Below are positions 59,401 through 62,872 of a stretch of DNA of 64,000 nt, in pieces. The DNA is taken from NCBI GenBank assembly GCA_026929865.2, contig CM049398.1, positions 14,465,001 to 14,529,000 on the forward strand. Reading direction: 5' to 3'. The stretch's first letter is position 1. Each line of letters begins with the position of its first letter. This DNA is from Hyperoplus lanceolatus. Its lineage: Eukaryota > Chordata > Actinopteri > Uranoscopiformes > Ammodytidae. Made by a program: the position numbers and the translations under genes. The notes under the pieces are model-generated. The model did not search any database. It was not told the DNA's origin and was given only the letters and a program-made list of their open reading frames with translations.

Positions 59401-62400
59401 ATGGTAGATTCGAACAGGTTGACCTATACCAGGGACTAAAAATATGGATATACTGTAAATGCTTTTGCTGCTTTGATTTTGACCACTTTTAAGATTCGAT
59501 TGTGAAGATTGTGTTTGTTCTCATAGAAAATTATCATGCAAAACAATATCAAACAACAACATCACTTCTTAGCATTTCAGGCTAATCTTCAGTTATCAGA
59601 ATCACATGGTTTCATATGTTGGTAGTTCATCAACACGTATGATAGAAGTTGTTCTACGTGAATACATTTGCTTTGGCACAATAGTTGTTAAGTTGACAGC
59701 AAGAAAATTTACTTTTACATGCAAAATACCAATTTTGGTGAAAAAAAACATGCTCTCTTTCAGGGCCATGGGGAAATGAGAGGGGCTTGAAAACATATAT
59801 CTCACATGACCAAAAATGTTTTCCGTTGCCTACAGGGGGTGGCTCACATTACCCGATACCTCAGATTCCCCCGTTCTCCCCTATGTATATATTTTTGATG
59901 TATTGAGGCACTTGCAGAGCTCGGTTAAGGTTAGGAAAATGGTCTGAACACACATTTGTTGCCCTGTTGGATTTTGAAGTTGTAGAAAGCGCTGTGTTTC
60001 CAGGACTCAACAAAAGCTTCGGTGAGAGGATCGTTATCACTCGTCATCAAAAGCTAAAAAAAAAAAGTTTATGAAAATGGAATATAAACTTACATAATAA
60101 AAACTATTTTTTATATATAGATGCATTTAAGATTTTCTCTGCCTCTACCCTGCTATTTATTCCAGAATGAATGTCTGATGAATTCCTAAGGTTTTAGGCA
60201 GCCGCACCGCTCTGGCTGTAAACAGATTATCATTTCATGGCCGAGCATCAGTGTCACCTTTTTACGCGACTGCTTTTATCTTCTAACCTATACTAAACTA
60301 AAGCATGCATCTGTCCACGTGCTTGTCATTACATGTTTATAAATGACAGCATGTGTGTTTATCGGTTTGCACACAATAAGCCTTTAAAGTTCCTTTCTAT
60401 TGACATTATTTAGAGAAATACAACAGCTGTCCATTTCTTTCTTCCAATCTGTGTGTGTTTATGTGTGTGTGTGTGTGTGTGTGTGTGTGTGTGTGTGTGT
60501 GTGTGTGTGTGTGTGTGTGTGTGTGTGTGTGTGTGTGTGTGTGTGTGTGTGTGTGTGTGTGTGTGTGTGTGTGTGTGTGTGTGTGTGTGTGTGTGCATGC
60601 GTGATATCTGTCTTGGAAGGAATAAAATAGGTTTGCCATATATACTCTCGGTCATAGCAGAATTTGAGATAAGAGATTATGTAACAAGATGAGAGCACTG
60701 AGTGTCATGGTTAAATGGACATGGATTACATTGAAGTGGATTAGGATGAGGAAGGATGAAACTATCAGTTAAATAAAATCATCATATCATCATTAAAGGA
60801 ATCATTAACTTCTTGTGTCTCTAGTTAACGATTCATTTGCTGACAATAGTAAAAAAATATAATATAGAACTACAGCGGCCTTATCCATTAAAACTGTAAC
60901 CAAGTGCTGGACAATTTCCAATACAGAAAAAAAGGAGAAGACAGAATCCTCAGTCAAGTGAAATATAAACTCAGTTGACAGCACTTGCTTTGCCTTTCTC
61001 TATCATGTGTAAAAATACACAGAAAAAAAGCAGCTCCGTTAAGCTTCAGAGTGCATCACGCTCTAATAAGATCAGAGTATACATTTATTTGTTGGGAAAG
61101 AGCAAAAGACTGTAGTAAATAAATTACCATATGTCATGCCCTACATATTTACACACATACTCTATCCATCTCTTAAGTTTGTTTGTTAACTCTAATATAA
61201 CAGGATGTTAAATATGTCTCATTCAGATTATTAATGGCCCTATCCAAGGCTTTTAATGGGTTTTCCCCAGAACAACAAACCATAGTGTTGATTAAAGGCC
61301 TACTTCACCGGTTGGAATATGAAGGTGTATTGAACTCGGAGATCCTATGAAGTATAAATGTGCAAAAAAAATTGAAATCGGATCATCCTAGCCTGAGAAA
61401 AGGTAGAAAGAGTGTTTTATGGTCTCACTGTCTAACCATACATTTTTCTTTCTGTGAAGGCCTTTAAGTGAATTTCATCTCTAAGCCTCTTTCCTTTGTA
61501 ACCAAACTGTTCCTTCCTTTTCACATCCAACCCTGCCTCTCTTGTCAGTCACCATTGATTCGCTGTACAAAGTGACGGAGGGCGGTCAATCGGACATCTT
61601 TCATCGGCATGCAGACGGCAGCTTGGACCACGCCTGCTGTTTCACAGTGTACCATGGGAACCACATGGAGTCCCTGGATCTGGTCACAACAAATTCAGAA
61701 GAAGCCAGAACCTGGATCACCGGCCTCCGCTACCTGATGGCTGGGATCAGTGACGAGGACTCGCTGGCCAAACGGCAGCGAACACACGACCAATATCCTT
61801 TGAAAGCAAAGAGCTTACACACAACTCACTGTTGGTCAAGGCAAGGCAAGGCATATTTATTTATACAGCGAAATTCAGACACAAGGCCATTCAAAATGCT
61901 TGACAGGGGCATATAATACATCAAGATTAGTTATTTAATGCATTATTTAAAGGTGCAGTGTGTAATATGACATCATCAAGAAAGTTCTACAAAGTTCTAG
62001 AATGCAACGCTCCCTGGGTAACCCCACCCCTTTTGAATAATAACAGAAGCTACAGTGGCCGTCAAGGACAAGGACAATTCTACATTTTAAACAATGCACC
62101 TGATGACATTCCAACTATGACACTTTCAAGATGGCGGCACTAGGCCTTGGTCCAAAATATGCAGAAATATGGACATATATGAGACCCTTTCTAAGGGAAA
62201 AAAATATAATTAAAAAAAAATGTTCAGCTATTATGCACTAAATTAAATGTACTTATGGATATTATAATTACTTTCTACAAAATCTGCTAGGAAATAAAAC
62301 CCAAAATTCTACACACTGCAGGTGCATTTAAGAGATAGTAAAAACAAAGAAAATACTTCAAGATTCAAAATGAAACTTTAAACATTTAGACATTTAGAAA

Positions 62401-62872
62401 ATTACGTGACTGACAATATCATATTTTCTATATAGCCTATTGAACTTAATAAGTCTTTCACAGTTTCAAACTAATTTTAAAATATTAGGGGAATCTGTAT
62501 TCACAAAACCAAATAGGATGCATTTTGAAGCAATCTTTGCCTACATTAGACATCGTTTAGGCACATCCGTTGTCTGTTCGAACTGAAGTCTCTTTCCACA
62601 AATTCCATCCCATTCTTGTAGGCTAAATGGATCTACAACAGCTAGTCAGAAACCAGCCCTAGAAATAATACTTAATCTAGGTGAAATACATTTACACATG
62701 ATACACCCCTTGTTTTCCTTAATGTGTGTGTGTGTGTCTAACGTGGTTGAAGCAGACGTTTGAGGAGGCCGACAAAAACGGAGACGGTCTCCTGAACATT
62801 GAAGAGGTCTATCAACTTCTCCACAAGCTAAATGTCAATCTGCCCCGCAGGAAGGTTAAACAAATGTTTCAG
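44414..62872 (+). CDS. plch1: Phospholipase C eta-1 (PLCH1), 5' part, continues beyond window
   Basis: Calcium-sensitive phosphoinositide-specific phospholipase C that splits PIP2 into IP3 and diacylglycerol at membranes, mainly in neurons. Visible coding exons: 44414-44456, 58939-59085, 61549-61792 and 62743-62872 (188 codons). They encode the start MAELEVCRNLSLEK, the PH domain (VERCMSVMQSGTQMVKLK; LFYLDEHRSCIRWKPSRK; YHGNHMESLDL; GLRYLMAGISDEDSLAKRQRTHDQ) and the first EF-hand (DKNGDGLLNIEE). The short N-terminal peptide and SLDL/EEARTWITGL wording fit PLCH1 better than PLCH2, and c3orf33 is its neighbour in human too. The X/Y catalytic and C2 domains must lie to the right of the window. 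Introns 1, 2 and 4 have GT donors; intron 3 has AT-AC ends. Confidence 0.93.
46423..46559. repeat. (AC)n microsatellite
   Basis: About 68 uninterrupted AC units in plch1 intron 1. Confidence 0.97.
48255..48400. repeat. Compound (CT)n-(AC)n microsatellite
   Basis: Fifteen CT units (48255-48284) pass directly into 58 AC units (48285-48400). Confidence 0.97.
48715..48748. repeat. (GT)n microsatellite
   Basis: Seventeen GT units in plch1 intron 1. Confidence 0.95.
49548..49597. repeat. (TA)n microsatellite
   Basis: Twenty-five TA units ending at the left end of the transposon at 49598; the TA tract would offer many TA target sites for such an element. Confidence 0.95.
49598..50542 (-). mobile_element. 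TA-flanked DNA transposon remnant, copy 1
   Basis: Inverted ends GGGAGAACGGGGTAA at left and TTACCCCGTTCTCCC at right, with TA on both sides. The sequence is a reverse-complement copy of 56109-57048. The word GTGACAACCAACCCC or a close variant recurs several times within it. No intact transposase frame is present. Confidence 0.85.
51569..52986. mobile_element. Probable hAT-like element with TGCCCTT-rich interior
   Basis: The right end reverse-complements to CAGTGGCGGACTCAGACTG, a hAT-style terminus; the left edge CATTGGCGTCCGCC is only loosely similar and no 8-bp duplication is seen, so the boundaries are uncertain. Within 51600-52110 the words TGCCCTTCTGCCC and AGTGCCCT recur, and a block around GGTTGAAAAAG...TGCCTTATTGGCTGCCCTTT occurs twice (about 51605 and 51955). 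Confidence 0.5.
51720..51950. repeat. Degenerate tandem array of TGCCCTTCTGCCCATCTGG units
   Basis: Successive imperfect copies of (T/G)TGCCCTTCTGCCC(A/G)TCTGG and CTAGTGCCCTGATAG alternate with no fixed period. It lies inside the probable hAT-like element. Confidence 0.7.
54280..54300. repeat. Short (GT)n tract
   Basis: About ten GT units inside the larger element. Confidence 0.85.
54696..55318. mobile_element. TTAA-flanked MITE nested in the 54027 element
   Basis: TTAA at 54696-54699 and 55315-55318; inverted ends AAGCGGACCTATGATGC and (reverse-complemented) AAGAGGACCTATTATAC. This teleost MITE type is very common. The interior has moderately GC-rich stretches but no coding frame. Confidence 0.82.
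56109..57048 (+). mobile_element. TA-flanked DNA transposon remnant, copy 2
   Basis: Ends GGGGAGAACGGGGTAA and TTACCCCGTTCTCTCC with flanking TA. It is the inverted counterpart of 49598-50542. Near 56565-56700 a decayed frame reads LTDTPEKERIEQEKAA followed by KKKGATKSKQ, which resembles the C-terminal tail of pogo/Tigger-type (DDE_1) transposases; together with the TA target this suggests that superfamily. It is non-autonomous as it stands. Confidence 0.82.
58939..59085 (+). CDS. plch1: plch1 exon 2, N-terminal half of PH domain
   Basis: Acceptor TTCTTCTGCAG, donor AAA-A|GTGAGT. Encodes VERCMSVMQSG through PSRKSEKAK, the first strands of the PH domain, which in PLC enzymes binds phosphoinositides. 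Confidence 0.93.
59800..59882. mobile_element. Terminal fragment of a GGGAGAACGGGG-type element
   Basis: Ends CCCCCGTTCTCCCCTA, matching the inverted terminus of the two long copies. The preceding GGTGGCTCACATTACCCGAT sequence differs from theirs, so this is a related subfamily or a 5'-truncated, diverged copy. Its left limit is not defined. Confidence 0.5.
60462..60595. repeat. (TG)n microsatellite
   Basis: About 67 TG units in plch1 intron 2, on the transcript-sense strand. Confidence 0.97.
61549..61792 (+). CDS. plch1: plch1 exon 3, C-terminal half of PH domain
   Basis: Acceptor CTTGTCAG. Encodes ITIDSLYKVTEGG through RQRTHD plus two bases of the next codon. The exon ends ...GACCA directly before ATATCCTTT, a U12-type donor, not a GT donor. 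Confidence 0.92.
61835..61913. repeat. Dispersed teleost repeat fragment
   Basis: GGCAAGGCAAGGCATATTTA, then ATACAGCGAAATTCAGACACAAGGC and ATTCAAAATGCTTGACAG, is a widespread fish repeat phrase; only about 80 bp are present. Confidence 0.6.
61947..62331. mobile_element. Family C MITE, copy 3 (plch1 intron 3)
   Basis: Flanked by TTAA at 61947 and 62328; a near full-length reverse-complement counterpart of 15258-15635, with matching interior words such as CAAGATGGCGGCACTAGGCC. Confidence 0.87.
62743..62872 (+). CDS. plch1: plch1 exon 4, first EF-hand
   Basis: Encodes QWLKQTFEEADKNGDG... through VKQMFQ. The loop DKNGDGLLNIEE has acidic or polar residues at all calcium-coordinating positions (D1, N3, D5, N9, E12). 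Donor CAG|GTCAGT; the next exon lies outside the window. Confidence 0.92.

Follow-up and report, generated by a model that had tools for sequence, protein, structure and literature searches.

U12-type introns are rare and are removed by a second (minor) spliceosome. When human is compared with other vertebrates, minor introns prove to be retained in at least 90% of comparisons (passage in PMC2831892), and across the animal-plant and animal-fungus divides they are conserved less than major introns (PMC10639083). The PLC genes are rich in minor introns, with 60% of the family's genes concerned (passage in PMC6865273). A TG repeat placed right before an acceptor is known from CFTR intron 8, (TG)m(T)n, where the length of the repeat affects splicing (passage in PMC12171016).

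The intron described here lies in a 64-kb window, by which we mean the whole stretch of DNA that was analysed, and is very probably a conventional U12-type AT-AC intron between the PH and EF-hand exons of a PLC-eta gene. It resembles other vertebrate U12-type AT-AC introns in its donor, its branch site, its AC end, the lack of a pyrimidine tract and its position as a single minor intron among U2-type introns, but differs from them in a branch-to-acceptor spacing of 20 rather than 11-13 nt, in the TG repeat that fills this spacing and in a branch site that ends in T. As an intron of a PLC-eta gene it also belongs to a family rich in minor introns, although the relevant passage of PMC6865273 gives neither gene nor position and so offers no position-level match. 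The likeness to CFTR is confined to the repeat itself: CFTR intron 8 is a major intron, has a polypyrimidine tract and carries longer repeats, whereas the present one is a minor intron with 7.5 units.

Since minor introns are conserved among vertebrates and the PLC family is rich in them, the AT-AC position in PLC-eta is most likely old and already catalogued. An AT-AC intron is ordinary for this family, and the TG spacer is one mildly interesting detail. A literature search, with the intron databases (U12DB, MIDB, IAOD) and article supplements lying outside it, found nothing on PLCH1 with a U12-type or minor intron; among the matches listed, the minor-intron literature named neither PLCH1 nor PLCH2, no paper joined 'U12-type intron' with 'UG repeat', and in the literature on minor introns the term 'TG repeat' was absent, the word 'microsatellite' occurring once in one paper. 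One paper (PMC6558932) reportedly names TDP-43 27 times alongside minor introns.

The intron and its gene

The features of the locus, in positions of the window, are the following.

58939..59085, + strand, upstream coding exon with the start of the PH domain, followed by the U2-type donor AAA/GTGAGT (59086)
61549..61792, + strand, coding exon with the remainder of the PH domain, ending ...RTHDQ, codon split CA/G
61793..62742, + strand, AT-AC intron, U12-type by sequence, 950 nt, phase 2
61793..61801, + strand, 5' splice site ATATCCTTT, 8/8 against ATATCCTT (consensus in the passage of PMC2831892)
61914..61916, + strand, first in-frame stop upon intron retention, after 40 extra residues
62715..62723, + strand, branch site TTCCTTAAT, branch A62722 (or A62721)
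62723..62737, + strand, TG run between branch site and acceptor, 15 nt, 7.5 units
62738..62742, + strand, 3' splice site CTAAC, holding the first AC or AG past the branch site
62743..62872, + strand, coding exon with WLKQTF and the first EF hand, followed by the U2-type donor CAG/GTCAGT (62873)

The intron begins with ATATCCTTT and ends with CTAAC. The exon closes with ...CGACCA before the intron start ATATCCTTTGAA, and the intron end TTTTCCTTAATGTGTGTGTGTGTGTCTAAC passes into exon GTGGTTGAAG; the longer exon sequences are ...CGAACACACGACCA up to 61792 and GTGGTTGAAGCAGACGTTT from 62743. The codon that the intron splits (CA/G) encodes Gln, and phase 2 agrees with the under-representation of phase 0 among minor introns (passage in PMC7367187). 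The coordinates 61793..62742 and the sequences that an earlier, sequence-only reading had assigned to the intron proved exact.

The product of the joined exons comprises 173 residues, with the junction at residue 130. Pfam placed a PH domain (PH_12) at residues 2-112 (E=1.1e-10, 42.5 bits against a cut-off of 27) and an EF hand (EF-hand_1) at residues 132-159 (E=5.5e-06, 26 bits, narrowly over the cut-off of 25.4), and three other EF-hand models matched the product under their cut-offs. When solved structures were searched, PLC-gamma 1 was the best match (E ~4e-07) and PLC-delta 1 the next, the latter with an alignment covering the PH part only. Across the junction, ERWLRKQFYSVDRN aligned gapless with DQWLKQTFEEADKN in the four PLC-gamma alignments listed (PLC-gamma ERWLRKQF). 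With PH_12 and EF-hand_1 flanking residue 130 and the PLC-gamma alignment spanning it, the earlier placing of the intron at the PH/EF-hand junction of a PLC gene is borne out. The PLC catalytic domain (X and Y, PF00388) would fall past the end of the window. Against approximate human sequences of PLC-eta 1 and PLC-eta 2, the product has 146/173 and 133/173 identities, respectively; this makes PLC-eta 1 a lead, and the gene is probably plch1, of a fish as the repeats and the gene suggest. Searches for relatives of the protein gave six stretches fitting the pattern in viral contigs and 53 in genome contigs, with none confirmed in either set, as is expected of an animal gene.

Several repeats accompany these exons. 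Within the AT-AC intron, 61946-62323 is a repeat of ~380 nt. A copy of it, 94% alike, occupies 15262-15636 on the opposite strand, and 15636-15736 holds a further piece; inspection by eye suggests imperfect inverted repeats at the two ends of the intronic repeat (TTTAAAGGTGCAGTGTGTAA), like those of a small DNA transposon. The next upstream intron, between exons 58939-59085 and 61549-61792, holds a 73-unit TG microsatellite (60450-60595). Upstream of the PH exons there is a long inverted repeat (49594-50450 and 56196-57051, ~6 kb apart), whose arms form three pairs of 230, 484 and 155 nt that are 88-94% complementary. A 197-nt tandem repeat with CCCTAA-like stretches occupies 63551-64000, with 2.3 copies up to the window edge and 92% matches. 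No Rfam family matched at its gathering score anywhere in the window.

Splice signals and competing joins

That the intron is of the U12 type with AT-AC ends had been proposed from the letters, and the three signals agree with the proposal: the donor matches at 8/8 positions, the branch site at 7/8, and the AC end sits at an exon border. The branch site, TCCTTAAT, is one base off the consensus TCCTTAAC (passage in PMC2831892), its final base being T where the consensus has C. On the + strand of the whole 64-kb window TTCCTTAAY occurs at this branch site alone, with one more occurrence on the - strand at 23046, and the last 60 nt of the intron contain no other branch site with up to two mismatches to TTCCTTAAC. 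Between the branch site and the intron end, the terminal AC is the sole AC or AG. The intron has no distinct polypyrimidine tract: pyrimidines make up 0.50 of its final 20 nt, whereas two other acceptors of the gene reach 0.80 and 0.85. The donors of the introns on either side are of the U2 type and strong (AAAGTGAGT and CAGGTCAGT, 9.0 and 8.6 bits in an approximate U2 matrix), so that a single minor intron stands between U2-type neighbours in view.

What counts with such motifs is that they fall exactly at the two exon ends, not that they are present. When the window was shuffled 300 times with dinucleotides preserved, a loose, unanchored U12 signature turned up on the + strand in 89 of the shuffles (mean 0.4), and motifs found somewhere in 64 kb therefore mean little. 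ATATCCTTT occurs at two further sites, 12716 and 29142, neither of which has a partner under the loose U12 pattern. Anchored at the exon ends, with the donor 9-mer in place and the branch 9-mer 8-20 nt from the intron end, the arrangement has p ~2e-9 under a first-order model built on the composition of the intron itself, a value uncorrected for the number of junctions examinable.

Alternative joins were surveyed by pairing 20 donors (GT, GC or AT; 61730-61859) with 24 acceptors (AG or AC; 62640-62799) in five dinucleotide pairings. The frame and the EF-hand peptide were retained in 20 joins, among which there was no GT-AG pair (0/20), and THDQ was fused directly to WLKQTF in only one, AT-AC 61793/62742. 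The statement in the sequence-only reading that this is the sole frame-keeping splice is thus too strong if taken literally, and holds for the THDQ-WLKQTF product; with that single join and the gapless PLC-gamma alignment, it is sound in substance. Judged by frame and by the same alignment, the AT and AC ends sit at the exon borders. In a wider GT-AG scan (11 GT donors, 54 AG acceptors, introns of at least 60 nt) six joins were in frame, and neither RTHDQ nor WLKQTF was retained in any of them (0/6). We rejected these GT-AG alternatives, all six of which cut between 110 and 221 nt out of the 244-nt PH exon and lose RTHDQ. A second AT-AC join, 61793/62757, keeps the frame but drops WLKQT and by arithmetic lies 35 nt from A62722.

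The remaining competitor is a weak U2-type GC-AG intron at 61806-62752, yielding THDQ-YPLK-QTF, with the AT-AC motifs accidental. Such a join is in frame, contains no stop and keeps LKQTF at the cost of one extra residue (YPLKQTF), yet its donor AAA/GCAAAG scores -2.5 bits in the same approximate U2 matrix as against the 9.0 and 8.6 of the flanking donors, its acceptor at 62752 has no pyrimidine tract (0.50), it replaces the Trp common to PLC-gamma, and it leaves the anchored U12 motifs (~2e-9) unexplained. In a search of solved structures with its product, EF-hand proteins including calmodulins figured in the best 60 of 381 matches; the query has only 68 residues, and the outcome decides nothing. 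In view of the donor strength, the missing pyrimidine tract and the loss of the shared Trp, we set the GC-AG reading aside as highly improbable.

Our working model is accordingly that of an AT-AC intron handled by the minor spliceosome. U11 and U12 snRNPs would jointly recognise ATATCCTTT and TTCCTTAAT, A62722 or A62721 would act as the branch point and the first downstream AC, at a distance of 20 nt, as the acceptor, and the minor spliceosome would remove the intron, as its motifs, their placement and the frame suggest.

Branch-to-acceptor spacing and the TG run

The TG run directly abuts the branch site and shares one base with it, as the first T of the run closes the branch motif. The final base of the intron lies 20 nt from A62722 (21 from A62721). 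The published range is 10-20 nt with an optimum of 11-13 (passage in PMC8199999), and the same optimum of 11-13 nt is given elsewhere (passage in PMC3584512); the spacing thus falls inside the range, at its limit, and 7-9 nt over the optimum. The earlier description of a TG run between branch site and acceptor that brings the distance to about 20 bases, near the upper limit, therefore stands on measurement. As the run makes up most of the spacer, the spacing equals 6+2n for n TG units, that is, 6 nt without the repeat, 12 with three units and 20 with seven. By this arithmetic the TG repeat supplies the needed spacer and carries the distance from the optimum to the limit. Annotation programs look wider, to 40 or 55 nt (passages in PMC6717393 and PMC7367187), and so a 20-nt spacing would not escape annotation.

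Since seven units put the spacing at the edge of the published range, the intron may splice less efficiently than it would with three or four. We consider it somewhat more likely than not that the TG run is neutral, in other words a microsatellite of a common sort that happens to occupy the spacer and does not measurably influence splicing. The window contains 13 TG/CA runs of at least 14 nt, and the 15-nt run of the intron is the shortest (the next has 23 nt), so that it may be an ordinary microsatellite stub; 20 nt is, moreover, still within 10-20 nt (passage in PMC8199999). Against neutrality, 20 nt is the very limit of the range, and there, according to published work, distance matters (passages in PMC3584512 and PMC8199999). 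It is unlikely that TG length tunes splicing, whether through distance or through a UG-binding protein, and similarly doubtful that TG alleles longer or shorter by one or two units would shift the spacing across the limit that the minor spliceosome tolerates and thereby set the amount of full-length PLC-eta.

A protein route to such an effect would have a UG-reading protein such as TDP-43 bind the UG run of the U12-type intron and hinder its acceptor, by analogy with CFTR exon 9, where TDP-43 on UG repeats right before the 3' splice site leads to exon skipping (passage in PMC12171016). The TG run here does adjoin the branch site directly, but CFTR has 11 to 13 units (same passage) and the present intron 7.5, to which binding is only putative; furthermore, the mechanism at CFTR is the blocking of a polypyrimidine tract (PMC12171016, in the passage cited), and minor introns have no such tract (passage in PMC3584512). 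We regard this explanation as improbable, though not to the degree of the GC-AG join.

Consequences of intron retention

Were the U12-type intron to be retained, translation would run into the stop at 61914..61916 and the protein would end 40 residues on, before the EF hands. Because the CTAAC just upstream of them resembles a U2-type branch motif, AAG (62752) and CAG (62755) could become weak cryptic U2 acceptors (62738-62755 region) if the U12 site fails.

Retention of minor introns has been followed in zebrafish zrsr2 mutants, where 218 of 662 U12-type introns were retained; these were shorter (mean 1077, median 451 bp) than the other 444 (mean 3556, median 1398), and the 950 nt of the present intron fall between the two medians (passage in PMC9501576). 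Splice-site sequences were alike in retained and other U12-type introns in zebrafish (passage in PMC9501576), and a study in mouse likewise describes no splice-site sequence difference between retained and other introns (passage in PMC6717393). As far as these passages go, detail in the end sequences is therefore mildly disfavoured as the main driver of retention.

If an effect of spacing is real, the PLC-eta intron would be a natural test of the reach of the minor spliceosome from branch point to acceptor, in 2-nt steps. If it is not, the intron is still a case in which imposing GT-AG ends on the gene model would misplace the PH/EF-hand junction.
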